Virus record (IMG/VR): IMGVR_UViG_3300007735_000641 | Span: 1 to 33,719 of that record | From: a virus | Reading direction: 5' to 3' (one strand) | DNA length: 33,719 nt | In this document: piece by piece, positions 2,615-33,719 of the stretch | Layout: the number at the start of each line of letters is the position of its first letter | Numbering within the stretch: position 1 is the first letter of the stretch | Notes under the pieces: generated by a model | Database searches by the model: none | Told to the model about the DNA's origin: nothing | What the model saw: only the letters and a program-made list of their open reading frames with translations | Program-made: the position numbers and the translations under genes

Positions 2615-3493
2615 TCACAAGTTACCCACAGGCTTCCTGTATTGCTCTGATACAATCATTGGAGTTGTGTTCTGCCACTTAATCAAATGATGAATCCTGG
2701 GATTGCTGGTGTTCATCATTGAAATCCTAACACTTGATGGGTGCATCATCACCGTAGTGAAAGCCTTGCAGTATGTTCCAAACCTTAAATACATATCAGT
2801 GATTCCATTCTTCTGGCTCTGGGTAGCTGTTTGAACCAGGCTGATCATGGGGATAGTGCCAAATAGCACTCCCCTGGAGCCCAGGGTTACGTACGTATTT
2901 ACGTCCTCATTCATTGCACCAATAAACTGGAATGGCCTTTCTGTTGAGCAGATGAATGAGTTCATGCATTTTCTGATAAGAGGCTTCTTGGTTGCATACT
3001 TATTTTCAACACCACCAATGAAGTCTCCACCCTGGGCAAATGCCATGCTTGAGAATCCTGTTGCCCTATAGAAATCAAGGTAAAAGCCAAGCACAGCATC
3101 CAGATTATCCACATAGTGAACCTTCAGCTTCTCACCACACCTGCTCACATACCTGTATTCAAAAGAGATGTAGTCATCGTCCAGTTCCATAAAGAACTTC
3201 AGCCCCTTGTCCTTGGCTATTTGGAAACAGGCATTCCTGGCATGAGTGATTGTCCTTCTTTCATCAAAGTTGTTGCCCTCATCAACTTGGTCTGCCAACT
3301 GCTTCTTGTTGAATACAACAACCTTGTCTTTGCCAAAGTTGGCAATGTATTTGTCTAGGCTCTTGTCCTCATCATCCACAACCAGGTAAAGCTTTCCAGT
3401 ATAGCCAGCCCTCTGAAGGGTTGCCATGGTCTTTACATTGGTTGGTCTGCCATGGGTCAGAATGAATATGGCAAAGTCATTCTGTATGCTCAA
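2615..3493 (-). CDS. TET/JBP-associated (GREB1-related) glycosyltransferase-like protein, 292 aa
   Basis: The N-terminus (FAIFILTHGRP, residues 7-17), the KLYLVVDDEDKSLDKY segment (34-49), the DERRTITHARNACF helix (77-90) and the acidic FMELDDDYISF motif with D105-D107 match my recollection of phage glycosyltransferases that accompany TET/JBP dioxygenases. The DDD would bind a metal-nucleotide-sugar. The expected role is transfer of a sugar to a hydroxymethylated base in phage DNA. Translation probably starts at TTG 3493, supported by AAGGAG eight bases upstream (3507-3502); no nearby in-frame ATG exists. It overlaps the conserved 134-aa gene by 17 bases. No TET dioxygenase is visible in the window, so the acceptor base is unknown. 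Confidence 0.75.
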   Translation of the reverse strand: MSIQNDFAIFILTHGRPTNVKTMATLQRAGYTGKLYLVVDDEDKSLDKYIANFGKDKVVVFNKKQLADQVDEGNNFDERRTITHARNACFQIAKDKGLKFFMELDDDYISFEYRYVSRCGEKLKVHYVDNLDAVLGFYLDFYRATGFSSMAFAQGGDFIGGVENKYATKKPLIRKCMNSFICSTERPFQFIGAMNEDVNTYVTLGSRGVLFGTIPMISLVQTATQSQKNGITDMYLRFGTYCKAFTTVMMHPSSVRISMMNTSNPRIHHLIKWQNTTPMIVSEQYRKPVGNL

Positions 3494-9873: not shown

Positions 9874-9895
9874 ATAGGATTTCCTTTCTTCTTGG

Positions 9896-13812: not shown

Positions 13813-13824
13813 AAGGATTTCTTT

Positions 13825-19582: not shown

Positions 19583-19598
19583 TTTAGGATTTTATGAT

Positions 19599-19625: not shown

Positions 19626-19970
19626 TTAGCTTACGTTAGGGTAACCAGTAGCACTGATGTCCAGGGTAACAAAGGCATCATTGCTCTTGTTAATGGTGAT
19701 GGAATCAATGCGGGTTGTTCCAAGGGTGGTGGCATTAGCTAGGGCGGCCAAGGCGGCTCCAGCAGTCACACCATAAGTACCAGTTACAGCAACAGATAGG
19801 CTGTATCCAGTGGTTGCATTATAATATGCAACGCCAACAATGTCGCCAGTTCTATCGCGAATTTCACTTTTTTCAACATTGCGTGTTTCACTGAAGCTTT
19901 GAACCAATCCAAGTCCTTCAGCGGTTGCACCGAATACAAGTCCGGCTTGTCCAATAGTCGTTGCGGGCAT
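19626..19970 (-). CDS. Probable major tail tube-like protein, 114 aa
   Basis: The protein is beta-rich and polar with repeated Ala/Gly/Thr segments: IGQAGLVFGATAEGLGLVQS, VEKSEIRDRTGDIVGVAYY, GYSLSVAVTGTYGVTAG and SNDAFVTLDISATGYPN. Alternating strands with short loops and the position just before the chaperone genes fit a small major tail protein that polymerises around the tape measure. Shorter than classic lambda gpV; identification rests on position and composition. Confidence 0.55.
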   Translation of the reverse strand: MPATTIGQAGLVFGATAEGLGLVQSFSETRNVEKSEIRDRTGDIVGVAYYNATTGYSLSVAVTGTYGVTAGAALAALANATTLGTTRIDSITINKSNDAFVTLDISATGYPNVS

Positions 19971-20967: not shown

Positions 20968-22170
20968 TTAATGGCTTACCCAACTCGCCGTTCCTGCTGT
21001 TGCAAAGATGGCCGAAAGAGTGGTAGTTGTATAATTACATTCAAAGAAATCTCCACTCGATAGGGCAACCATAAACCCGCCGCCGAGCGTGGTCGCAGTT
21101 GCTCCTGCGTTCACAAATAACTGACCTGCTCCGAGATTATAGACGGTGGCCATCTTGCGGGCAGTATTTGCGGGGACGAGGGTGGATGAAGTTAGCGAAG
21201 TAAAACTGCCAGAGGTGATGGCGGTAGATGAGATGGAGAGGGATGCGGTGACCGAGCCTATCTGGGCTGTGCCTGCGACTAGGGCTGGAAGCGAGCCAAT
21301 GGTGACGGAGTTGCCAACTGTAACCGATGAAATGGATATGGGAACAGTCCCGCTAATTGATGCCGTGACTGAACCAATCTGTGCCGCTCCTGCGACCAGT
21401 GCGGGGAGCGTAGTTAGTGATACTGGTTGCGTGGCTTGAAAGAATGTTCCGCTTACTGGAACTGTCCCGCTGATGCTTGCCGTCACGCTTCCAATCTGTG
21501 CCGTCCCTGCTCCGATTGTTACTGTGCCCCCACCAATCGTCACTACTCCAATGCGGTTTGTGCCAGTAGGGAGGGCAGAACCTAGATTTGCTGTGACTGT
21601 GCCAGAGATGGGGAGCGGAGTGCTAGACCCAACACTTCCATTAAGAGTTGAAATTTGAACTGGTACTACATATTGATCGCTTGCCGAGGTTATATCTTGA
21701 TCATAAGGAGTAATGGGTATCTGAAAATAATTACCAGAACCGTCATTACTTCTCGCAACTACATTCGCCGTCACCGTGCCAGAGATGGGGAGAGGGTTTG
21801 CGGTTGTAACTCTATCGTCAGATGAAATTCCCAAGTATATTTGTATCGGTAGAGGCTGTCCGCCGTTGTCTACTCCAGCACCTTTAAATGTATCTTCAGC
21901 ACCCCATCCTATTCTAACTGCTCTACTTGGAATATCTCCTTGGTGTGTTCCGGCAACATTCTCAAGATTCGCCGTCACCGTCCCTGCAATCGTCTGTGTA
22001 GATGGGAGGTTTGAGACAGAAACAACACTTCCGCTAACAGCACCCCGCATATCTGTAATCGCTTGAGTACCAAGACTAACAACCGTATGGGCGGTGATAT
22101 GTTGCCCACTAGAAAGAATGGTTGAGAGCGTGGTTGCCGACTGGTTGCCGTCTAAAATGGAAAGTGCCAT
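20968..22170 (-). CDS. Repeat-rich tail/fibre-type structural protein, 400 aa
   Basis: Low-complexity Ser/Thr/Gly/Val repeats dominate. PISGTVTAN-type units occur at about 61-68, 128-136 and 187-195, and AQIGSVTASISGTVP-type units at about 224-238, 263-277 and 302-312. Residues 325-400 form a distinct domain (NTARKMATVYNLGAGQLFV, GDFFECNYTTTTLSAIF). Such layouts are seen in virion surface proteins with repeated beta turns and a C-terminal adhesion or trimer domain. The repeat array could vary by recombination. Confidence 0.6.
   Translation of the reverse strand: MALSILDGNQSATTLSTILSSGQHITAHTVVSLGTQAITDMRGAVSGSVVSVSNLPSTQTIAGTVTANLENVAGTHQGDIPSRAVRIGWGAEDTFKGAGVDNGGQPLPIQIYLGISSDDRVTTANPLPISGTVTANVVARSNDGSGNYFQIPITPYDQDITSASDQYVVPVQISTLNGSVGSSTPLPISGTVTANLGSALPTGTNRIGVVTIGGGTVTIGAGTAQIGSVTASISGTVPVSGTFFQATQPVSLTTLPALVAGAAQIGSVTASISGTVPISISSVTVGNSVTIGSLPALVAGTAQIGSVTASLSISSTAITSGSFTSLTSSTLVPANTARKMATVYNLGAGQLFVNAGATATTLGGGFMVALSSGDFFECNYTTTTLSAIFATAGTASWVSH
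21232..21501 (-). repeat. Intragenic repeats coding AQIGSVTAS... units
   Basis: Near-repeats of about 117 bases encode the three AQIGSVTAS segments of the 400-aa protein (residues about 224-313). Related shorter repeats coding ISGTVTAN lie upstream in the gene. Copies differ at third positions, so this is old or selected repetition, not a fresh duplication. Confidence 0.55.
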
Positions 22171-22186: not shown

Positions 22187-22678
22187 TTAAATCACGGCAA
22201 CATACATCGAGTTTTGCTTTTGGTAGAAGTTCAAATACCGCAAGCCGTCGTCTGTCTCTGATGGGGTGCATATAAGGCTCATATTTAGACCCCTCTGCCA
22301 AGCCCTTTTATCCGTCCTAATGGTTGGGGTCTGACCAGTAATCCGAGCCGTATAAACCTTGGTATCAACTATGTTGTTTTGAATCTTGGTAAAGAGTGGA
22401 GGAGTTTCAGAATAGAAAGCCTCAAAAATAGAGCAGTATTCAGCATCAAAATCCTCCTGGCTAATCTTGGTCGCTGTGTCTGAGTAGTTGATTGTAACAT
22501 CTACTTCATAGACCCCAGTATAGTTTCCCAGGATTTGACCCCCTACCGATGCAGAGATTGTGGCAAATGGGAACAGCTTTGCCCCCACCCGATTGGTCTT
22601 ATAGACATTTAGGTTTGGAATGTTGGCCAGAAGATTGTCTAAAGCATCCTCCACATTGATTTGAACGCTATTGGTCAT
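22187..22678 (-). CDS. Tail-terminator/completion-like protein, second paralogue, 163 aa
   Basis: The N-terminal helix (VEDALDNLLANIPNLNVYKT), then PFATISASVGGQILGNYTGVY, FDAEYCSIFEAFY and KVYTARITGQTPTIRTDKRAW, parallel the 138-aa protein encoded just upstream element by element. The layout (helix, strand pair, helix, TGxTP motif, tryptophan near the end) fits small tail-terminator or joining proteins. Its start overlaps the paralogue's stop by four bases. Confidence 0.55.
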   Translation of the reverse strand: MTNSVQINVEDALDNLLANIPNLNVYKTNRVGAKLFPFATISASVGGQILGNYTGVYEVDVTINYSDTATKISQEDFDAEYCSIFEAFYSETPPLFTKIQNNIVDTKVYTARITGQTPTIRTDKRAWQRGLNMSLICTPSETDDGLRYLNFYQKQNSMYVAVI

Positions 22679-23091
22679 TTCTTTGCAGTTGCTGTTATGT
22701 CCAGGGTCATAGACCTAGACCAGGTGCGGTTTTGGGCTATTACATCTGGGGTATCTCCAGTCACCTTTGCAACATAGAAGGTTATGTTTGAATTGGTTGT
22801 GAGGTAGCTCGCTAGGTCTGGGACACGATAGAGTTGCTCTAGGATGTCGTAGAACTTTGCATCAAAATCTGTTCTAGCAGTTGTGTCTGCCCTTGCAACA
22901 TAGGTGATGGATGCAGGTGTTTTGAACACACCAGAAAAGGGGATTAGTTCTTCTGACCCAATCTGGGCTTGAATTGTTATGCTTGGCATTGTCCTGGCTG
23001 TGCTTCTTTCACTGGTAAAGAAGTTCACACCTCCTATGCCAGAAACTACATTAAGAAGGGCGTTCTCAACCTCTCTCTCAATAGATGCCAT
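22675..23091 (-). CDS. Tail-terminator/completion-like protein, first paralogue, 138 aa
   Basis: The protein begins IEREVENALLNVVSGIGGVN and contains SITIQAQIGSEELIPFSGVF, FDAKFYDILEQLY and TFYVAKVTGDTPDVIAQNRTW. The shared pattern with the next gene indicates tandem duplication and divergence. The position between the 105-aa head-joining candidate and the fibre gene suits a tail-terminator or head-tail connector. The start follows the 105-aa gene by four bases. Confidence 0.55.
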   Translation of the reverse strand: MASIEREVENALLNVVSGIGGVNFFTSERSTARTMPSITIQAQIGSEELIPFSGVFKTPASITYVARADTTARTDFDAKFYDILEQLYRVPDLASYLTTNSNITFYVAKVTGDTPDVIAQNRTWSRSMTLDITATAKK

Positions 23092-23095
23092 GGCT

Positions 23096-23413
23096 TTAAG
23101 TTGTAATCTCTGCCAGGTCTATTGTATAGGAAAGGCCATCTGTGGATTGCGAGAATCCAGCAATCATCCTTTCAATACCAGACACCGTGCAAAGGTTTCC
23201 AATTACAGGGGCAGAAATCATGGACGCACAGACAACAGCGTTCTGTGTGATTCTAAAAACATCTCCACCCACATCCAGCTCGGATGAAACTGCCAGGTCT
23301 GTGACACTGGCAGAAACAGCACTTGAGCCAAGACCAGTAACAGATTGCCACAGGTCTGTTATCATGTAGTTCAAGTCTGTGCTGAAATAAGAAGTTTGAA
23401 TTAAGCCACCCAC
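23096..23413 (-). CDS. Hypothetical head-tail joining protein candidate, 105 aa
   Basis: No nearby in-frame ATG exists, so GTG 23413 is the likely start. The protein is beta-rich (DVGGDVFRITQNAVVCASM, SAPVIGNLCTVSGIERMI, GLSYTIDLAEI) with an N-terminal helix. It is the first gene after the glycosyltransferase cassette and precedes the paired terminator-like genes, a position occupied by head-closure or stopper proteins. The assignment is positional. Confidence 0.5.
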   Translation of the reverse strand: MGGLIQTSYFSTDLNYMITDLWQSVTGLGSSAVSASVTDLAVSSELDVGGDVFRITQNAVVCASMISAPVIGNLCTVSGIERMIAGFSQSTDGLSYTIDLAEITT

Positions 23414-23428
23414 ATCCAGCTACCCCTG

Positions 23429-24163
23429 TCAATCTTGGGGTAAGTATATTCCCTTTATCTTGTCTGTTATGTATATGCCACCAATCTGCTTGTGGAATGC
23501 AATATGTTCGCAGTCTGTTCCAGTATATCTAATTTCTCTTATTTTGTCGGCCTTATAGAAGGCCATTCCACCAAAAGCTGAATTAGTAAACATAGCCTCA
23601 CTAACCGAACTTTTGGTTGCCTTCTTAAAGTCATCTCTTGTGTCTGGATATTGCATATCCCCAACCCAATGGGGTCTTGTTCCATCCTTAAATTCTACTG
23701 CCAGTAGGTCGTAATATACCCACTCCCTATCCATATATTGAATTGCCTCACCTGGATGCCATGGAACATACTTCTTTGGCATAAGTCCCATAATTGCCTC
23801 GGCGTTGTTTTGTGGCACATAGCTTTCCAGCCCAATGAACTGAAACAAGTCTAGGTCAGCAACACAAACCCAGTCTGGTTGATTTGCCTCTGCGATCATA
23901 AGGGCTTCATTGCGCAGATAGGCCATTCTTTCATACCTAGTCATTCCATCTGCTGGGGTTGGGTTATGGATTTGAATAGATGGGCATAGCTTCGATAGGG
24001 CTTGCAGAATTTTTGGCGTATCGTCTGTGCTGTCGTTTTCTAGTATTGCCCCATATAAATCCCAATTATGTTGTAGAGATAAAAGGGATGGAATGTTGGA
24101 CAGGAGTGATCTTGCACAATTCCTGGCCAACCCGCACAAAAAAAGTTTTGGCTTATGCATCAT
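23429..24163 (-). CDS. Glycosyltransferase (CAP59/GT69-like), 244 aa
   Basis: ATG 24163 is preferred over TTG 24169. The sequence reads FLCGLARNCARSLLSN, then GAILENDSTDDTPKIL, MTRYERMAYLRNEAL, and WVCVADLDLFQF, with acidic residues suited to metal and nucleotide-sugar binding, as in fungal CAP59-type mannosyltransferases and related phage enzymes. It likely transfers a sugar to a virion or host-surface target. Its start overlaps the previous glycosyltransferase by 11 bases. Confidence 0.65.
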   Translation of the reverse strand: MMHKPKLFLCGLARNCARSLLSNIPSLLSLQHNWDLYGAILENDSTDDTPKILQALSKLCPSIQIHNPTPADGMTRYERMAYLRNEALMIAEANQPDWVCVADLDLFQFIGLESYVPQNNAEAIMGLMPKKYVPWHPGEAIQYMDREWVYYDLLAVEFKDGTRPHWVGDMQYPDTRDDFKKATKSSVSEAMFTNSAFGGMAFYKADKIREIRYTGTDCEHIAFHKQIGGIYITDKIKGIYLPQD

Positions 24164-24920
24164 CGGCAACGCTCTTGTCTTGAATATGACTGAAGAATTG
24201 ATTTAGCCGTACCGGCCCGGCCGTCTCTTGTAATTCCATCCACCCATCCACCAGCCCTTTGTAGCCATAGAAATCTTGCTTAAACTCAACTTGCTTTATA
24301 GTGGCGTAGGCGTAGTGGTTGAATACCAGCCCCCAAGTTTCTGTGATTCCCCTTGGGACTAATCTAGCCCTTATATTTAGCTGTGGTGGCTCATGGCTTG
24401 TAAAGCAGACATTGTTTCCCCACTTCCAAGCCCTCATCCATTCATACCAACTAGAACCATATCCTTCCCTAGTAACTATCTTTTTATTCTCCCCAACAAA
24501 GAAGTTACAATAAAACTGCATCGTTGTCCCATCCTCCGACCCCTTGAGGCATTCGTAAATCTTTTCTATCTGATCTGCTCTCCACATCTCATCAGCATCT
24601 ATCTCCATAACAACCCCAGAATCGACTCCTTGTAGGGCATGTTGAATCATTTCCAGCTTCCCCTTAAATGCCTTGTCTTGCGAATAGACTGAAACACTCT
24701 CTCCCCTAATGCTCTCAAGGTATTCATGTGTCCCATCTACGCTAACAAAGTTTTTGTGGTATTTATCTGGAACCTGCTTGCACCACCTAGTGCATCCAAG
24801 TGGCTCTGAAACTCCCTCTACAATCCTCCACTGCCAGGGAATCTTTAGCTTTTCAAATTCTGCGAGATGCCTTTCGATATATGGCATCCCATTAAGAACT
24901 ATGGTGAAAATGGTTAGCAT
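24153..24920 (-). CDS. Family-2-like glycosyltransferase, 255 aa
   Basis: The protein begins MLTIFTIVLNGMPYIERHLA, a typical nucleotide-sugar-binding start, and has VVMEIDADEMWRADQ with a DxD motif near residues 107-109. A cysteine/tryptophan-rich stretch (PLGCTRWCKQVPDKY) lies near residues 41-55, and WYEWMRAWKWGNNV follows the DxD. Cassette position and overlaps (7 bases upstream, 11 downstream) support an operon with the other glycosyltransferases. Donor and acceptor are unknown. Confidence 0.7.
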   Translation of the reverse strand: MLTIFTIVLNGMPYIERHLAEFEKLKIPWQWRIVEGVSEPLGCTRWCKQVPDKYHKNFVSVDGTHEYLESIRGESVSVYSQDKAFKGKLEMIQHALQGVDSGVVMEIDADEMWRADQIEKIYECLKGSEDGTTMQFYCNFFVGENKKIVTREGYGSSWYEWMRAWKWGNNVCFTSHEPPQLNIRARLVPRGITETWGLVFNHYAYATIKQVEFKQDFYGYKGLVDGWMELQETAGPVRLNQFFSHIQDKSVADDA

Positions 24921-25570
24921 ATATTTTTAATTATATTTGCATCAATAAGAACTTCATTCATTGGTATTTGATTTGCATATACAATCTCTTTGGTTACGCA
25001 ATCATCAATTCTTTGGCTTGGTCGAGCATTTTCCTCGACATGCCAAATTTCAATATCGCATTTTGGATTCCATATTCCAGCTTGCTTTGCAACATAGGTT
25101 AAAAAGGTGTCTGATTGTTGATATGGAGATATTCTTCCAGTGGCATTTATCCATTTCTTAGATATTGCAAAATGCATAAAATTTTCAGAGCTATATTGTA
25201 TATCATTAGGATTTATTGTGTTTATTATAAGTTTATCTTTTTTACACAAGATATTTGAATCCCACTTTGAAGTTTTCATTATGCAGTCGTCGCCAAGAAC
25301 AAGAAGCCAATCTGCTTTTGAAATACTGGATAAAAAGTTAAGGTATTCATTCATTTTTGAGTAGCCCATTCTCTTGAAGATAACTGCCTTCCAGTTTATG
25401 TTTTTTGCTATATCTTCTTTTTGAAATTCAACTAAAGATTCAATGTCATCATCATCAAACCCAAACAAATAATTATGGCTTTCCTTGTTTTCACAATTTG
25501 ACTCAAGGCTTTCGCATAATCTTTTTAGATACTTTGGCCTTTTCCTTGTTGCACAAATTATAGAAATCAT
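24914..25570 (-). CDS. Small GT-A-type glycosyltransferase, 218 aa
   Basis: It begins MISIICATRKRPKYLKRLCE, a GT-A-type N-terminus, then YLFGFDDDDIESL and WLLVLGDDCIMKTSKWDS with the metal-binding DD (94-95). The domain ends with a variable lid (WNPKCDIEIWHVEENARPSQ). It starts inside the last codons of the methyltransferase and is translationally coupled to its neighbours. The donor sugar cannot be predicted. Confidence 0.65.
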   Translation of the reverse strand: MISIICATRKRPKYLKRLCESLESNCENKESHNYLFGFDDDDIESLVEFQKEDIAKNINWKAVIFKRMGYSKMNEYLNFLSSISKADWLLVLGDDCIMKTSKWDSNILCKKDKLIINTINPNDIQYSSENFMHFAISKKWINATGRISPYQQSDTFLTYVAKQAGIWNPKCDIEIWHVEENARPSQRIDDCVTKEIVYANQIPMNEVLIDANIIKNIC

Positions 25571-26175
25571 AGTTGAAAGATGGCCGCACCATTACGAACT
25601 GACCAATCCTCCCAGAGTAGTTTCGCAAATCCCTTGAGTTTGTGGTAGTTCGCCCAATTCTTCATAGCGTTAATATCATCCAGGGCGATGATTGCCTTCT
25701 CTGCCAAAAATGGCCTTACGCATCGAAGTTCTGCTTCCCCAGAAAACTCGCAACCATCAATCAGCACAAAATCAAAATTCACCTTATGCTCAATATGGAT
25801 GTCCTCAATTGCGTTAGTGCTGTATGGTTGGGCAAATTCAATGCATTCGTGATACCAACCAAGAATTTGAGTTAGTGGGTATTGGTTAATGGTGGTTTTG
25901 TTTGTTCCGTAAAATTCTGCTATATCCAACTGATTCATCCATAGACTCGGCAAGGTTGCCGTTCCATTAATGGCAACTCCTCCCCTTGCCTCCAGGTTCA
26001 TTCTGTGCCTTCCAATTCTTTCTGGATGGTTCTCAATGCTGAATAGCATTTTCGTCCTAATACATTGAGTCGAACCATCCCCAGTTCCTCCCCCAATCTC
26101 TAGGCCAACATCAAGATTATAGGTGTATCTAGCCAATGCCCTGCCAAAAGAATCGTTGATGCTTATTTCTTGCAT
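25567..26175 (-). CDS. SAM-dependent methyltransferase-like protein, 202 aa
   Basis: Motif I is visible at VGLEIGGGTGDGS (23-35), and VDFVLIDGCEF-type (FDFVLIDGCEFSGEAELR) with a late acidic segment (AIIALDDINAMK) supports a Rossmann methyltransferase fold. It resembles sugar or lipid O-methyltransferases found in glycan clusters. Its place inside a glycosyltransferase cassette points to methylation of a sugar. The start overlaps the 84-aa gene by 13 bases. Confidence 0.65.
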   Translation of the reverse strand: MQEISINDSFGRALARYTYNLDVGLEIGGGTGDGSTQCIRTKMLFSIENHPERIGRHRMNLEARGGVAINGTATLPSLWMNQLDIAEFYGTNKTTINQYPLTQILGWYHECIEFAQPYSTNAIEDIHIEHKVNFDFVLIDGCEFSGEAELRCVRPFLAEKAIIALDDINAMKNWANYHKLKGFAKLLWEDWSVRNGAAIFQL

Positions 26176-26417
26176 TTTACCATCTCGGCTAGTGCTTTTT
26201 TGATTGCGTACTCAATCACGGCCTCTGGGTCATACCTCAAGGCAATCATCCCGGCCTCATACAATTCCTTCCCAGCCTTATCATCGCAGGTAATGTCCAC
26301 AATCACATACCTTGTTTTGTCGATGCGAGACTTCCCAAATTTAATTATACCAAGCCCCTTGGTATTCTCCCCCTTTTTCGACTTCCTACATCCAATTATT
26401 TGCTTTGCGTTTTTCAT
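26163..26417 (-). CDS. Small hypothetical protein in the glycosylation cassette, 84 aa
   Basis: ATG 26417 (AGAAAGGGAAAG upstream) is chosen over a longer frame that would lie deeper inside the 551-aa gene; the overlap is 32 bases. The protein is basic (KNAKQIIGCRKSKKG) with an alpha/beta core (TRYVIVDITCDDKAG, GMIALRYDPEAVIEYAI). No family recognised. It lies between the double glycosyltransferase and the methyltransferase. Confidence 0.5.
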   Translation of the reverse strand: MKNAKQIIGCRKSKKGENTKGLGIIKFGKSRIDKTRYVIVDITCDDKAGKELYEAGMIALRYDPEAVIEYAIKKALAEMVKCKK

Positions 26418-28041
26418 AGATCGCTTTCCCTTTCTCATAAAACTCTGGCTTGTTGTGATGAACAAGTTGCTGGTCTGCTTCTTTCCCAGTGTGGATTGGG
26501 TTTTCATGGGTGAACTTTAAGTCCTTTGCCTCAATAACAACTTGGTCGGCATAGGCTCTTTCTGTGAACTCATTGTCTGAATACAGCCCATCGGAATCCT
26601 GGTAATCTGGATGAAATAGCCACCCCCCTTGAGTTTCAAGCCTCTTTTTGTTGAGAATGGCCATACAGAGCAGTTTGTCTGTTCTAAAGCCATCTGATAT
26701 GGCCAGCACTTGATCGCTGTTTTTAGAGCCAATTAAAGAGCAAATAGAGGCATCCCAGTGTCTTGGTGGAGCCCAATCATCAGACATTTGCACAATGATG
26801 TCTGCATTGGCCAGTTTTGCCCCATGGTTCCAAGCATTGATAATGCCACCAGGATTGCATCTGATGGCCTGGTGAGGGGTATAGTCTGTGGGGTCATCAT
26901 GATCAACCATGAATAACCACTCAACCTCCAGGGGTTTCTCAGCCAATGAAAGCCATTGGAACCTTCTTTGCCAGGCAACCTGTGGTCTGCCCCTGGTTGC
27001 ATGAACCAAGGTAATTCTGGGGGCTGGCTTTATCTTCTTCATCTTTGCAACTTCATCTGCCTTCCCAACACAAGCAGAGGCAGTCTCATATAAATCCATT
27101 GCTTGCCATCCATAGATTGCCTCAACCTGGTTCCAGTAGTGTGAGGATGGTCTTGGGAGACTCATGGCCGCCCTGGCTGAACCCCATGCCTTAATCCATT
27201 GACCCCTTCCAGCATATTCCAATGCAGTCCAGTAGTGTGCCTCTCTTCTGTCTGGCTGGAGTGTAATAGCCTGTCCAAGATATTTCAGTTTATTCTCTGG
27301 CTTTGCACATCTGCCCATATTACAAAGAACATCATATCTTAATGTATCCTCAAGGTCTTTGAACATTAAGGCCATTTCACCAAACTCCAGGCACTTCTCC
27401 CAGTTCATTGAAAGGAAATGTTCTTGCTGGGTGTAATATAGAGAGTTTGGGGCTGGCTCCAAGGTGTCTTTTAGGATTGTAAGGTTTCTGTCTGCTGAAG
27501 CTTTTTTATAGCCATGGGGCTTGTGAATCCTAATCACCTTATCTACACCAAAAAGCTTATCTGGTTCATTGGCAACCAAAGCCTCATGAACCCTGTTCTT
27601 CCATTTGCATTTTCCTTTTCTGCTGGCCATTTCTCTTAATGGTATAAGTCCAGCATTTTGGACATCGTATCTGAATGCAACTAAATCTGCTTTCCTTTTG
27701 TTTGCCTCTTCAATGGCATCATCTACCAGGGCTTCTGCCCCTGGTTGCATCACATCATCAGCATCTACCCACAAAGCCCATTCATTTTTGCAAGCCTCTA
27801 GGGCTGTGTTCCTGGCAGATGCAAAATCATCTACATGATTCCAATCATTGTTTTTATTTTTATAATGAACAATTCTAGCGCCGTGAGCCAATGCAATCTC
27901 TTCTGTTTTGTCTGGCTCAAGGCTCCCCCTAGAGATGCAAATAATAAACTCTTCTGCCATTGGCTTAAACGACTCCAAGCACCTGGCAATATAGGCTTCT
28001 TCATTTCCTGCGATTAAATATACTGAAAGCTTGTGCTTCAT
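26386..28041 (-). CDS. Tandem glycosyltransferase with TPR-like middle, 551 aa
   Basis: The first GT-2-like domain begins KLSVYLIAGNEEAYIARCLE and has WALWVDADDVMQPGAEAL with DAD at 93-95. Residues about 200-320 are helical repeats resembling TPRs (WEKCLEFGEMALMFKDLE, YLGQAITLQPDRREAHYWTA). A second GT-like domain spans about 340-551, with LVHATRGRPQ, VDHDDPTDYTP (379-389) and MSDDWAPPRHWD. This fused layout suggests a multi-sugar-adding enzyme. It follows a strong terminator, so it leads the cassette. Confidence 0.75.
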   Translation of the reverse strand: MKHKLSVYLIAGNEEAYIARCLESFKPMAEEFIICISRGSLEPDKTEEIALAHGARIVHYKNKNNDWNHVDDFASARNTALEACKNEWALWVDADDVMQPGAEALVDDAIEEANKRKADLVAFRYDVQNAGLIPLREMASRKGKCKWKNRVHEALVANEPDKLFGVDKVIRIHKPHGYKKASADRNLTILKDTLEPAPNSLYYTQQEHFLSMNWEKCLEFGEMALMFKDLEDTLRYDVLCNMGRCAKPENKLKYLGQAITLQPDRREAHYWTALEYAGRGQWIKAWGSARAAMSLPRPSSHYWNQVEAIYGWQAMDLYETASACVGKADEVAKMKKIKPAPRITLVHATRGRPQVAWQRRFQWLSLAEKPLEVEWLFMVDHDDPTDYTPHQAIRCNPGGIINAWNHGAKLANADIIVQMSDDWAPPRHWDASICSLIGSKNSDQVLAISDGFRTDKLLCMAILNKKRLETQGGWLFHPDYQDSDGLYSDNEFTERAYADQVVIEAKDLKFTHENPIHTGKEADQQLVHHNKPEFYEKGKAIYEKRKANNWM

Positions 28042-28167
28042 TTAGGATTTCAAGAATGATTATTTTTAGATCAAAGTAAAGAGTTTAATGTAATCATGCA
28101 AATAGTTATTCTGGTATTTGTTCCATGGGTAAAAAGCGCTGTAGAATTTGATTGTTGTGGTGCTGTC
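28042..28167 (-). promoter_or_regulatory. AT-rich leader between capsid terminator and glycosylation cassette
   Basis: The space after the terminator is AT-rich and could hold a promoter for the cassette. TTGCAT and TACTTT lie 17 bp apart on the coding strand, but both are poor matches. No gene is seen here. The ribosome-binding site of the 551-aa gene is weak. Confidence 0.3.
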
Positions 28168-28207
28168 AAAAAAAGCAGGGGCTGGAAGGTTTTATCCCTC
28201 CAGCCCC
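28168..28207 (-). terminator. Intrinsic terminator after the major capsid gene
   Basis: The arms GGGGCTGGAAGG (28178-28189) and CCCTCCAGCCCC (28196-28207) pair with one mismatch around a six-base loop. On the coding strand the stem is followed by GCTTTTTTT (A run 28168-28174), a textbook intrinsic terminator. It lies just past the capsid stop and would end head-module transcription, so the glycosylation cassette probably needs read-through or its own promoter. Confidence 0.85.
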
Positions 28208-28233
28208 CACAAGGAACACACCAACAGCAGTCT

Positions 28234-29199
28234 TTAGGCGAAGCTTGTGGTGATACGAACGGCCGCGTTAGCATCAATGAGTTTCTCACTTGTGTTCATG
28301 CGAACACGGAGAACGTTGGAGCGACGGGCTTCATCACGATAGCTTTCAGAAACAAAACCACCAGGGGCATCAGCCGACCACACCAGGGTACGACCAATTC
28401 CACCAGCAGTGAACTGACCACTCTGCACATTGGCAACAATGATCTGCGTGCTGGGAACAATGAACCCACCAGAGTAGGCTTTGTTCTTGTTAGCAGAGTT
28501 AATTGCGGCCCGACCAACCAAAACCCGCTCCACCCCAAGGGCAGCGGCGATTTCAGCTTCAGCCAGGAGACGGCCCTTGGTGTCAGAAACAACACCAAAG
28601 AACTGGTTCTGGAGTTTGGTTGTGCGGCGGATACGCTCAAACACAGGGGCAGACATAATGATTGTATTGGCTTCGTAACCAAGTTTATTCAACTCAGTGC
28701 GAGCACCAGCAACATCACCAGCTACATCAATGTTTGCAAGATTCGCATTGGTGTAGGCAGAGATTGCACTCTGGTCAGCAGTTGTGAATGGGGTTGTGCC
28801 AGCAAACAGAATATCGCTTACACGCTTCTCATGGCCAAGTTTGATTTGGCGAAGGAGGAAGCGGGCAGACGATGCTTCGAGATCAAAAAACCTGTCAGCA
28901 TCTGCGCGAAATCCGTCATCGATTAGCTCTTCGAGGCCATACTCGATCGTGTCGTAGGTGTCAGTCCCAAACGCACGAACAGCACGGGCGTAGTCAGAAG
29001 CGGCCACACGAGGCTTAGAGTCATTGTTCAACAGGTCAGCTTGTGCAAGCTGAACTTTGAGATATTGTCCGCTCTTGGCAGAGACAGGAAGCAAAGGCAG
29101 AACCTCTGCTCCGATCAAGCCAGTTTCGGTGTTAGGAGCCTCGATCAACGCCTGGTTGATATCGGCCCGAATGGTTGCGCCACCAGAAATAAAACTCAT
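28234..29199 (-). CDS. Major capsid protein, 321 aa
   Basis: The protein begins MSFISGGATIRADINQALIE and reads like a HK97-fold capsid protein: an N-arm, an E-loop-type segment (SGQYLKVQLAQADLLN), a spine helix (SARFLLRQIKLGHEKRVSDI), P-domain strands (ANTIIMSAPVFERI, GFIVPSTQIIVANV) and a C-terminal strand (SNVLRVRMNTSEKLIDANAAV). Length is typical. It lies directly after the decoration gene and before the terminator. The start has the AACCAAGAAAG leader (29222-29212), shared with early genes. Confidence 0.85.
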   Translation of the reverse strand: MSFISGGATIRADINQALIEAPNTETGLIGAEVLPLLPVSAKSGQYLKVQLAQADLLNNDSKPRVAASDYARAVRAFGTDTYDTIEYGLEELIDDGFRADADRFFDLEASSARFLLRQIKLGHEKRVSDILFAGTTPFTTADQSAISAYTNANLANIDVAGDVAGARTELNKLGYEANTIIMSAPVFERIRRTTKLQNQFFGVVSDTKGRLLAEAEIAAALGVERVLVGRAAINSANKNKAYSGGFIVPSTQIIVANVQSGQFTAGGIGRTLVWSADAPGGFVSESYRDEARRSNVLRVRMNTSEKLIDANAAVRITTSFA

Positions 29200-30764: not shown

Positions 30765-31259
30765 TCAAAGCAGGTCGCCGTCAGCCTGGCGGTAGGATTC
30801 TTTTACCTTGCCACCACCTGCCATGAGCAAAAACTTATTTACCCTGGCTAATGCCCAGGCATTCCTGGAGTTTGGCTTACCACCACCAATGGTTGGCCTA
30901 AAGCTTGTTGAATAGGCTCCAGCACCCCTTCTAAACACTTTCTTTAGGGCTCCCAGGGATGGGGCTTTCTTGCCAGGGTTCTTGTCTTTCCATTCCTTCA
31001 GCTTGTTCTTGATTGATTCTTCTGCACCCTCCCCAATCTCAATCTTGCCACCAGTGCTTTTTGTGGCCGCTGAACCAGGCTTGTTCTGCTCAGAACCCTT
31101 GATTCTTTCCTTGGCTGGGGCTGGGGTCTGAGAGGCAGACTTTGCCCCTGGTCTCTCAAGCTTTACAGCATCAGCACCCCGCCCATATAGGGCTTCTGTG
31201 TATTGATCAAAAGCCTCCTCAAAGTTTTCTTCTGTAAAGAATTCCTTTGGAATAATCAT
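30765..31259 (-). CDS. Small basic protein with a conserved RP...NAWALARVN motif, 164 aa
   Basis: Residues 1-90 are charged and flexible. The C-terminal part reads FRRGAGAYSTSFRPTIGG, then NSRNAWALARVNKFLLMAGG and ends SYRQADGDLL. I recall this arrangement as a small domain in tailed-phage virion or head proteins (DUF5824-like). It overlaps the portal stop by four bases. Function unknown; a head-assembly role is suggested by context. Confidence 0.6.
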   Translation of the reverse strand: MIIPKEFFTEENFEEAFDQYTEALYGRGADAVKLERPGAKSASQTPAPAKERIKGSEQNKPGSAATKSTGGKIEIGEGAEESIKNKLKEWKDKNPGKKAPSLGALKKVFRRGAGAYSTSFRPTIGGGKPNSRNAWALARVNKFLLMAGGGKVKESYRQADGDLL

Positions 31260-33719
31260 TTTAATGTCGGCCCCCTATATTCTTTATACATTGCATACAC
31301 TTCCTTGCTATACTTCTTTCCATTCAGATTACCAGCAAAAGTTTCAGCAACAAATTCTTGTGGGTTTTTCATTGCATAGTCGCTTACCTGTTTTGCAACA
31401 GACTTTTTTAATGCACCAATTTTCCCACTTCCAAATTTGCCCCTTTTCCATGTGCGCCATTGTTCATAAGAAACATCTTTTGCATGGAGAGCATGGCCAT
31501 ATTCATGGCCAAAAGTATCAACAGCACTGCTCCATTTGTCCTTTACGCCCTGTTCTTTCATTTGCAAGTATTTGTCACTCTCAAAATACTTGCTGTTGAA
31601 TGTAATTGCTTGATAGCTTCTATCCTCGCTGTTGCTTGAAATGGCATAAGCCCTTGACCATCTTCCAGTAAGTCTTTCTGTTGTAATCATATATGGTGGC
31701 GGTATTTCATATCCCTTTGCCATAATGTTATCAAAGGATTTTTCAATGTGCTGGGTGTTCTTCATGTTCTTGGGAAGTATTACAAATTTAACTCCAGGCT
31801 TACGCATCTTTTCTTCAATCCTATTTCTTTCCTGTTCTTCTGGAGTCTTGGGTTCTGGCGTTACTCCCTTTGGTGGTGCTGGTGGTTTTGGAAGATTCGG
31901 CTTGGGCTGGGTTGGTGGCTGGGGTTTTGGCTGTGGCTTTGGTGCTTGTTTTGGAATTTTCCCACCAGGTCTTTTTGGGCTATATCCACCAACAAGCTTT
32001 GGCCTTCCATATCCAGATGAACAGCTATTTTCATCGTCAAAGGTTCCATCGTCCTTCATGCCACATGGATTCAATTCTCCATCAGAACTGGCAAGGGCTG
32101 TTTCCTCTTGTGGCTCTGAAAGGTTCTTGTCTCTTGACTCCATCTGGCCAACAACTTTATTTGCCCAGGAATAGCCAGCATCTCCACCCCACCCATTCCA
32201 GGCTTGCCATCCTTTGCCCTGGTCGTCCCAGGTTTCACCCTTCTTGTCGACCTCATGGCGATCAAAGAATGCCTTCATTCTGCGGACGGTGTCTGGAGAG
32301 AACTTAACCCCGTTGATCAAATCCCTAGCTCTGGCAATGCCCACAGGCGTCATGCCCTTTTGGCTGGCTGGTTTCCCTTCCCTTACATCCAAAGCCCTCT
32401 TGGCTGATTCCCTGGCTCCTTCTGGTGGCGTAAAATCAATCCCATCATACTTGCCTAACTCAATGCCACCCATCATTCCAGCGATGAGCATTTTAAGCTC
32501 TTGTTGGCTTAGGCTGGATAGGGCTTGTTCAGCTTGTTTTTTTTTATCTGTCATCGGGCCGCCAACAATCCAGGCATCGCAGGTTCTTTTGGCCGCACAT
32601 TTGAAATCAAAAATTTCACAATATCCAAGGTTCCCACCCAGTGCCACTTCATTTGCATCTTCACCAATTCCATTTTTAATGCAACCCAGTAGTTTGTTGG
32701 TCTGGTTGAATGCGGCGCAATTGCCACAGAGCATTTTCTTTGCAGTTCCAATATCTCCCTGGAACTCTTTGGCCTTGGCTTTCCAGTAGCTCTCATTGGG
32801 TTCGTTAGGATTTGCTGGGCCGTAATTTGCTTTATCAACTGCTGTCTGTCTATTCTCAAGATTAAGTTTTACATCTTGAGTTGGTAGTGGGCATTTCAAC
32901 TCTTCTAAGCCTGTAGGTGAAACTGGGGCTTTGGGGGTTGCTGGGACTGAAGCCCCGCCCTGGCCTTCATCCTGTTGCCCCTCTTGGGCGGCTTGCTTTT
33001 CTTTTTCTGTGGTTGGAATGATTTTTCCAGACTGCACACCAGCAACAATGCCAATGGCCTGTTCCCTTGAAATGGTTGGGAAAGCGGCTGTGATAACTGA
33101 AACCGCACCCTCCTTGGACAATGCGCCAGCCGCCACTGCATTGATAACATTGATAAGAGAAGCAACCTGGGCTCCATTGAGACTTTGCCCAATAACATCC
33201 TCTTGGCCTTCCACTTGTTTGCCGTCTTGGGCTGTTTGTCCTGGTTGCCCTGCCTGTGCTGGCTGGCCTGTGGGTAAAAGAATTTCAGACACTGCTTGGG
33301 CTGGAACTCCATACTCCTTTGCCAGGTCTTGAATCATCTTGGTCTCAATGGCTCTTGCCCTAAAGGCCGCCTCAACATCCAGCCCCTTCTCTGCATAGAT
33401 TGAACTTGCTGTGGTAAGTCCGGCCTTAAACTCTGCAATGTTTGCCATAGATTCCCGTCCCAGGTCGATAGAAACATTGGCTCCAAAATTGAAAATGCCC
33501 TTGGTTGTTTTGGCTCCATTGCCACTGATCATTCCCCTGGCTACACCATCAGCAATAACAATGTTCTTGATTGGATTCAGAACCTTATCATTAAGTAGCT
33601 TCTGGTATCTGTTGAAAGTTCTTCCAGCCTGTTGCATTTCAAGCCTGGCTGTGGGGCCGGACATGGCAGATGGGTCGACAGCAAAGGAGTATGGGATTCC
33701 AAGCCCCATGCAAATGTTT
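31256..33719 (-). CDS. Partial portal protein fused to Cys-rich and HExxH metallopeptidase-like domains, >817 aa
   Basis: The frame is open to the window edge, so the portal N-terminus is missing. Numbering from ATG 33709: 1-140 is the portal clip/C-terminal region (GLGIPYSFAVDPSAMSGPTA ... FNRYQKLLNDKVL). A Gln/Gly-rich linker follows. Residues 328-380 hold a cysteine cluster (CGNC, YC, KC, RTCDAW). Residues 450-525 are a conserved helical motif (ARARDLINGVKFSPDTVRRM; WGGDAGYSWANKV). A Pro-rich linker (580-620) leads to a C-terminal zincin-like domain with HEYGH (735-739) and a second acidic site (PQEFVAETFAG, E785/E789). Such fusions may carry a head-delivered peptidase. Confidence 0.75.
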   Translation of the reverse strand, partial: NICMGLGIPYSFAVDPSAMSGPTARLEMQQAGRTFNRYQKLLNDKVLNPIKNIVIADGVARGMISGNGAKTTKGIFNFGANVSIDLGRESMANIAEFKAGLTTASSIYAEKGLDVEAAFRARAIETKMIQDLAKEYGVPAQAVSEILLPTGQPAQAGQPGQTAQDGKQVEGQEDVIGQSLNGAQVASLINVINAVAAGALSKEGAVSVITAAFPTISREQAIGIVAGVQSGKIIPTTEKEKQAAQEGQQDEGQGGASVPATPKAPVSPTGLEELKCPLPTQDVKLNLENRQTAVDKANYGPANPNEPNESYWKAKAKEFQGDIGTAKKMLCGNCAAFNQTNKLLGCIKNGIGEDANEVALGGNLGYCEIFDFKCAAKRTCDAWIVGGPMTDKKKQAEQALSSLSQQELKMLIAGMMGGIELGKYDGIDFTPPEGARESAKRALDVREGKPASQKGMTPVGIARARDLINGVKFSPDTVRRMKAFFDRHEVDKKGETWDDQGKGWQAWNGWGGDAGYSWANKVVGQMESRDKNLSEPQEETALASSDGELNPCGMKDDGTFDDENSCSSGYGRPKLVGGYSPKRPGGKIPKQAPKPQPKPQPPTQPKPNLPKPPAPPKGVTPEPKTPEEQERNRIEEKMRKPGVKFVILPKNMKNTQHIEKSFDNIMAKGYEIPPPYMITTERLTGRWSRAYAISSNSEDRSYQAITFNSKYFESDKYLQMKEQGVKDKWSSAVDTFGHEYGHALHAKDVSYEQWRTWKRGKFGSGKIGALKKSVAKQVSDYAMKNPQEFVAETFAGNLNGKKYSKEVYAMYKEYRGPTLK

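Follow-up and report, generated by a model that had tools for sequence, protein, structure and literature searches.

A modular glycosyltransferase cassette among the structural genes of an uncultured phage, probably acting on virion proteins

Why would a phage carry a block of sugar-transferring enzymes in the midst of its structural genes, and on what would those enzymes act? We examined this question in an uncultured phage represented by an IMG/VR virus record of 33,719 bases (IMGVR_UViG_3300007735_000641), the whole of which we call the window. Its minus strand carries, at 23429-28041, six genes that overlap head to tail and are flanked by the gene for the major capsid protein (MCP) and by small neck/tail genes. 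A previous sequence-only reading had described this block as a glycosyltransferase (GT) cassette that might glycosylate virion proteins or alter the host surface. We conclude, with a probability of roughly 70%, that the cassette is a late operon which glycosylates virion proteins and represents a new, modular type.

Gene content of the cassette

The position of the six-gene block between head and neck/tail genes, after a terminator, was borne out by the coordinates of the open reading frames and by the hairpin itself. The cassette genes and the two genes bordering them are listed here; counts refer to 83 distinct MCP-to-g105 regions of relatives, which are described below.

28234..29199, minus strand: MCP gene (phrog_1005 major head protein, 2.2e-31)
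26386..28041, minus strand: GT1, 551 amino acids (aa); GT-A domain, TPR region and another GT-A domain; proposed role, priming glycosyltransferase for protein
26163..26417, minus strand: sm, small conserved protein, 84 aa; start from the alignment; tblastn match in 79/83 regions
25567..26175, minus strand: MT, 202 aa; probable class-I S-adenosylmethionine (SAM) methyltransferase, proposed sugar O-methyltransferase; in 76/83 regions
24914..25570, minus strand: GT2, 218 aa, variable slot A; phrog_14945 glycosyltransferase, 8.5e-10; in 2/83 regions
24153..24920, minus strand: GT3, 255 aa, GT2-family-like glycosyltransferase; Pfam 22.9 bits against a cut-off of 23.3; in 77/83 regions
23429..24169, minus strand: GT4, 246 aa, TTG start, variable slot B; Glyco_tranf_2_4, E 1.2e-4; in 6/83 regions
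23096..23413, minus strand: g105, first neck/tail gene past the cassette; in 19/19 long contigs; hhalign E 8e-5 to a 99-aa gene of a second clade, clade B

The complement first proposed (four GTs, one methyltransferase and one small unknown protein) held up through family matches of varying strength, with a correction to the start of the small gene. A 114-aa version of that gene (26163-26507) was dropped: because M31 of the longer call is invariant in 23/23 aligned sequences, we place the start of sm 30 codons downstream. A C-terminal Cys is present in most aligned sm sequences; the sm profile had no PDB match at E<=0.1, and its predicted bbaa model is of low confidence. We call MT a methyltransferase because of its match to Methyltransf_24 (E 0.016) and its conserved stretches GGGTGDGST and LIDG/ALDD, which we take to be SAM-binding motifs. 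GT3 falls slightly under the Pfam Glycos_transf_2 cut-off, GT2 and GT4 do not pass PF00535, and the match of GT4 to Glyco_tranf_2_4 is weak. PDB searches with MT, GT3, sm, a slot-B family of the relatives (c5) and a 114-aa tail-region protein returned nothing usable. The neck/tail label of g105, g138 and g163 derives from their position, without a family match.

The leading enzyme resembles glycosyltransferases that act on protein

GT1 exceeds the curated cut-off of Pfam Glycos_transf_2 (PF00535; 62.9 against 23.3 bits), and its C-terminal half (342-530) matches a PHROG glycosyltransferase (2.3e-5). When a profile of 21 GT1 sequences was compared with the PDB, it matched GmaR (6.4e-11 over residues 1-196), SunS (3.4e-9) and a ThuS entry (both over 6-236), and designed TPR proteins over 198-321; a GT1 of clade B searched alone again returned GmaR first (4.3e-6). 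The nearest NCBIfam model is SunS (4.9e-7). A structural model with a mean predicted local distance difference test score (pLDDT) of 72.5 consists of a GT-A domain (1-173), followed by helical pairs (180-338) and, from residue 343 on, by another GT-A-like part. Foldseek with this model placed SunS/ThuS on top (6.3e-18 to 3.7e-16), some seven orders of magnitude ahead of the next match, WrtF (3.3e-10), with low TM-scores (0.28-0.47) and a large root-mean-square deviation (rmsd). VIA comparisons gave Z 18.0-19.2 (rmsd 9.9-13.8) for SunS/ThuS and Z 14.7-17.0 for the single-domain WrtF, TarS, TarP and RmlT. Acidic GT motifs, presumably DXD motifs, are intact in both domains in 21/21 clade-A and 80/80 clade-B sequences.

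Judged by sequence and modelled fold, GT1 has the build of a protein glycosyltransferase, as its nearest solved relatives by both measures act on protein or peptide. SunS/ThuS and Listeria GmaR, which provide the best fold and sequence matches, likewise have a GT-A domain followed by TPR-like helices. At its C-terminus GmaR has an antirepressor, whereas GT1 has there its second GT-A domain, the part matching the glycosyltransferase PHROG. A passage in PMC9638930 states that GmaR transfers N-acetylglucosamine (GlcNAc) to flagellin and that its TPR region is thought to bind flagellin.

GT1 is fixed and the genes behind it are exchanged

The IMG/VR relatives are environmental records, and we collapsed identical regions and duplicate contigs before counting regions, slots, fibre genes and upstream stretches. 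A capsid search found GT1 in 42/42 loci with >=4 kb downstream, and a second search, with a capsid 66% identical to that of the window, found it in all 47 loci with 4 kb downstream. It is also present in every one of the 83 MCP-to-g105 regions, a set that includes loci fetched with GT1 as query. The cassette is thus conserved across related phages, contrary to the doubt that the sequence-only reading had allowed for, and a chance or one-off insertion is excluded, GT1 being in every relative that has the region. The same reading had held that the block interrupts the usual synteny; this is true in comparison with mycobacteriophage Che8, but within its own clade the presence of GT1 at this place is the rule.

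The genes between GT1 and g105 are another matter. Slot B holds family c5 in 74/83 relatives and GT4 in only 6, and slot A holds GT2, c7, a Methyltransf_24 protein (c9), an FkbM methyltransferase (c12) or a GT7-like enzyme. One cassette (L103) carries a radical SAM gene, one unknown gene and an epimerase gene, and another (L052) an exostosin-like GT. At 10 distinct loci with capsids 94-99.9% identical to that of the window, median identities were 97% for MCP, 95% for g105 and 94% for GT1, against 83% for sm, 78% for MT, 71% for GT3 and 65% for g138. Distances compared across 62 loci (62 of 65 were kept) agree between MT and GT3 (0.70) and hardly at all between these two and GT1 (0.15, 0.38). 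GT1 and the neck gene at the far flank are thus fixed, and the genes that they enclose recombine and swap.

Outside this group relatives are few. No close relative by DNA was found among 50,697 phage records, a search from which near records may have been left out; the best capsid match in phage records was 24-25% and the best GT1 match 24-35% over partial length. In genome_contigs there was no capsid relative, and the GT1 profile matched one distant phage contig.

The same lead enzyme occurs beside a capsid protein without detectable relation

Through a rare slot gene we reached clade B, in which GT1 is 40-42% identical and window-type tail genes 36-67% identical to those of the window; hhalign between window and clade B gave E 2e-126 for GT1 and E 3.7e-20 for g138. 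The clade-B MCP matches phrog_283, and its hhalign probability against the window MCP is 0.3%. GT1 is present in 33/33 tail-selected clade-B loci with 6.5 kb upstream, and with the 114-aa tail-region protein as query it was found in 39/40 loci with 7.5 kb upstream, the sole exception (L420) being a contig that begins inside MT. GT1 therefore stays with the neck/tail genes across clades whose MCPs are undetectably related.

The sugar genes of clade B comprise a GT9-like gene (so labelled on a motif that we take to mark that family), two thiamine pyrophosphate (TPP)-type genes and a radical SAM gene in 39/68 distinct segments, and c5 only in 19. One TPP gene matches pyruvate dehydrogenase E1 alpha (2.1e-11); the names of the second and of the radical SAM gene were read from the sequence, without a family match. 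Pairs of TPP enzymes with radical SAM among neck genes (L275:11450-12543, L290:11034-11648) are unusual in a phage late region.

Two further loci come from metagenome-assembled genomes (MAGs). One is a more distant phage in a Betaproteobacteria MAG (L257), with MCP 48%, GT1 38% and GT4 40% identical and with HAD and nucleotidyltransferase genes in the equivalent position; a virus contig of 56.8 kb has the same GT1. Close to the head genes of this phage, L257:4-1212 encodes an ADP-ribosyltransferase-like domain (PF03496, 3.9e-13). In a Chthoniobacteraceae MAG, L258:100-2277 encodes a GT1-like double GT fused to Methyltransf_24 (6.5e-19), followed by another GT.

The cassette is set off as a separate unit

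Four elements on the minus strand delimit the cassette:

28175..28210, minus strand: Rho-independent terminator, 15-pair stem with 10 GC and a T7 tail, separating the MCP gene from the cassette
28164..28169, minus strand: TTGACA element before GT1; kept in most relatives
28044..28051, minus strand: GAAATCCT element directly before the GT1 start; AAATCC core in relatives
23427..23432, minus strand: TTGACA element before g105, marking the next unit; in 77/77 distinct relative upstream stretches

The terminator that had been proposed ahead of the cassette is real: read from 28210 to 28175, it separates the capsid gene from GT1, and a like hairpin is kept in 71/82 distinct MCP-GT1 gaps of relatives. 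Among 115 distinct stretches from relatives, 89 have TTGACA at most 60 nt ahead of GT1, the spacing being 128 nt in the window and about 20-35 nt in most relatives. AAATCC lies <=20 nt before the GT1 start in 115/115 distinct upstream stretches, with a count of 0 for nine other genes tested. Neither element was present in any distinct upstream stretch examined for MT, GT3, MCP, cement, g138, g163, c5 or sm. The cassette thus forms a unit of its own, in which GT1 has late-type upstream elements and beyond which the next unit starts at g105; such elements would suggest late transcription of the cassette.

Across 19 contigs the TTGACA-type element is strand-biased (177 on the coding strand against 9, at score 10) and stands before several structural genes. 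In the form TTGACA(T/C)AA it lies about 20 nt ahead of many structural-gene starts (window 28169, 23432, 19992, 15572, 30768 and others, minus strand). We rejected an ordinary sigma-70 -35 box, as a TAnAAT-like match at the usual distance accompanies only 5/202 sites. AAATCCT occurs at the ribosome-binding-site position at window 28044-28051, 19586-19593, 13814-13821 and 9876-9883 (minus strand), and at 65/1008 called starts.

Proposed pathway and alternative targets

In the pathway that we propose, the TPR region of GT1 would recognise a phage structural protein and its N-terminal GT-A domain would attach the first sugar to a side chain, after which the C-terminal GT-A domain would probably add a second. 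GT3 and GT4 or GT2 would lengthen the chain, and MT would cap or tailor it by O-methylation. With the first gene and the flanks fixed and the middle exchanged, the phages of the clade would therefore differ in the glycans that they display, all built on a single conserved primer. The sugars themselves and the benefit of the glycan, which may be shielding or adhesion, we infer.

Several points weigh against virion-protein glycosylation. In the GT1 model, pLDDT drops under 50 over the C-terminal 70 residues. GT1 scores far under the cut-off of the SunS equivalog model (TIGR04195; 28.9 against 350 bits) and appears to lie outside that family. For MT and GT3, sequence searches of the PDB found no solved relative. 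The acceptor is inferred rather than singled out as a specific protein, and at the scale of 19 contigs the distances of GT1 track several early genes equally well or better (0.72), so that no partner stands out. Finally, the N-domain of GT1 also resembles the wall-teichoic-acid enzymes TarS/TarP/RmlT (Z 14.7-15.8).

This last resemblance speaks for the alternative that, late in infection, the enzymes alter the host surface (lipopolysaccharide, teichoic acid or capsule) in order to block re-adsorption of progeny or rival phages. Some phages do alter the host surface to this end, and the exchangeable GT sets look like serotype loci. A passage in PMC10202952 suggests such a strategy for freshwater phages as well. 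We nonetheless consider this alternative unlikely. A crude hydropathy scan of the six cassette proteins revealed no long hydrophobic or membrane-spanning segment (maximum 1.15 over 19 residues), in contrast to O-antigen conversion of the Gtr type, which involves membrane proteins of the GtrA/GtrC type. No lipid-carrier or flippase-like gene is among the named slot families, the closest relatives of GT1 act on proteins, and the unit lies within the virion block in every relative.

Alternatively, the cassette could add further sugars to modified phage DNA, alongside the TET-associated glycosyltransferase that the window itself encodes at 2615-3493 (PF20691, 116 bits). Work by Pyle in 2024 is said to describe virus GTs that place diverse glycans on DNA. 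The sequence-only reading had kept the two loci apart, and rightly so: the TET-associated gene is in 6/23 records and a C5-methylase (PF00145) in a different 6/19, incomplete as these records are, whereas the cassette is in all that have the region. Three records of 36-38 kb (G012, G013, G018) lack both genes and yet have the cassette. A thymidylate-synthase-like gene was found in 0/19 (9/14 controls detected) and TET in 0/19, the latter a weak result, as no control was detected. The TPR region of GT1, moreover, fits a protein acceptor. With DNA-modification genes present or absent independently of the cassette, we regard a DNA target as very improbable. Among the 19 contigs the TET-associated GT (6) and the C5-methylase (6) never occur together, and no TET or hydroxymethylase was found to accompany window gene 2615-3493.

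That GT1 is a SunS-like enzyme acting on a small secreted peptide, namely its 84-aa neighbour sm, is very unlikely: SunS/ThuS have the nearest fold, and sm lies directly downstream with its C-terminal Cys mostly present, but L120 lacks sm, no sm is among the matches listed for 126 clade-B loci, GT1 persists in both cases, and no peptide-export gene was seen.

Which virion protein is the acceptor

A virion protein is the most likely target of this cassette in the late virion region, as the sequence-only reading had suggested; its two candidate acceptors fared less well. The Ser/Thr-rich repeat fibre (20968-22170) was rejected as sole acceptor, since 9 of the 61 loci lack the fibre gene and yet retain the cassette. 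Decoration, cement or capsid protein was rejected as universal acceptor, since clade-B loci had no cement match at 1e-4 (126 loci) and no relation of their MCP to that of the window could be detected. It is the neck/tail genes that the cassette accompanies, not the capsid, and therefore a neck or tail acceptor is weakly favoured. We propose as a candidate the following protein, for which a PDB search found no solved relative:

19626..19970, minus strand: 114-aa structural-region protein, candidate acceptor; common to both clades, 56-58% identical in clade B

Across the 62 loci the distances of GT1 correlate with those of g105 (0.77) and g138 (0.75) more than with those of MCP (0.37). This specific-looking signal is lost at genome scale, and we discarded coevolution of GT1 and g105 as evidence on the acceptor.

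Some neighbouring features deserve mention. Between MCP and GT1 many relatives (among them L002 3946-5133, L005, L067 and L127) carry a module, absent in the window, of a small protein (c8) and a second one whose N-terminus is common to its members (M-x-x-YGYG) and which frequently has a Laminin_G_3/ConA-like domain; the module is possibly an exchangeable capsid lectin. The 61 loci have the fibre gene only (43), this capsid-side module only (9) or both (9), and none has neither (Fisher 2.8e-6, uncorrected for descent); the two may be alternative adhesins. Neck/tail genes 22187-22678 and 22675-23091 are paralogues (30% identity, 1.4e-21) of a family present in 19/19 contigs; the three clade-B loci for which single genes were listed showed only one copy. 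The portal-like gene at 31256-33709 has a C-terminal peptidase-like match; relatives reach 1466 aa, and the window copy is probably cut by the window edge.

Comparison with known systems

Bacterial O-antigen and serotype loci have conserved ends between which glycosyltransferase, methyltransferase and sugar-nucleotide genes are exchanged. The cassette has the same pattern of fixed ends and swapped middle, but sits in a phage late region, with no membrane export genes seen. In the mycobacteriophage type of system, phage-encoded GT2-type enzymes occur with a Methyltransf_24/TylF-like domain, and the cassette has comparable kinds of enzyme. In Che8 the genes for a GT2+Methyltransf_24 protein (gp108), a GT2-like and a GT25-like enzyme lie at the far right genome end, distant from the capsid gene, whereas those of the cassette lie between head and tail. 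Che8 has no GT1 homologue detectable by profile, and the cassette is led by a TPR protein glycosyltransferase with a modular remainder. Cassette GTs had no profile match to Che8 gp108-110, and the best pairwise E-values (0.014-0.018) are at chance level for many pairs. The two systems may share their chemistry, but they differ in location, lead enzyme and modularity. Passages in PMC12363180 report glycans on capsid/tail-tube proteins of Che8, Corndog and Myrna; Che8 virion proteins are described as glycosylated there and in part of PMC11256854, and mycobacteriophage virion glycosylation is also treated in part of PMC12619734. In the one literature collection searched we found no description of this cassette, including a phage virion set of TPP and radical SAM enzymes with glycosyltransferases.

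Implications

More tentatively, and as a possibility to which we would give less than even odds, the cassette may represent a phage "glycotype" system, in which a two-headed GT guided by its TPR region primes a tail/neck protein and swapped modules build strain-specific virion glycans. In two or more phage clades whose capsids are unrelated, the primer, GT1, would be fixed beside the neck/tail genes, and the modules would include GTs, O-methyltransferases, epimerase, radical SAM and pyruvate-dehydrogenase-E1-like TPP enzymes; the glycans could be branched or unusual in other ways, with a serotype-like diversity.

Virion glycosylation has been shown in a few mycobacteriophages, where it is read mainly as a shield against antibodies. 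If our interpretation is true, widespread uncultured phages that need no antibody shield would have it as a fixed trait, encoded by an operon and with a polymorphic glycan. The cassette would also provide a compact, soluble set of protein-glycan enzymes, with TPP and radical-SAM enzymes unusual for virion operons. The purpose of phage glycans, be it adhesion, avoidance of grazing or lectins, or receptor choice, would then become testable.

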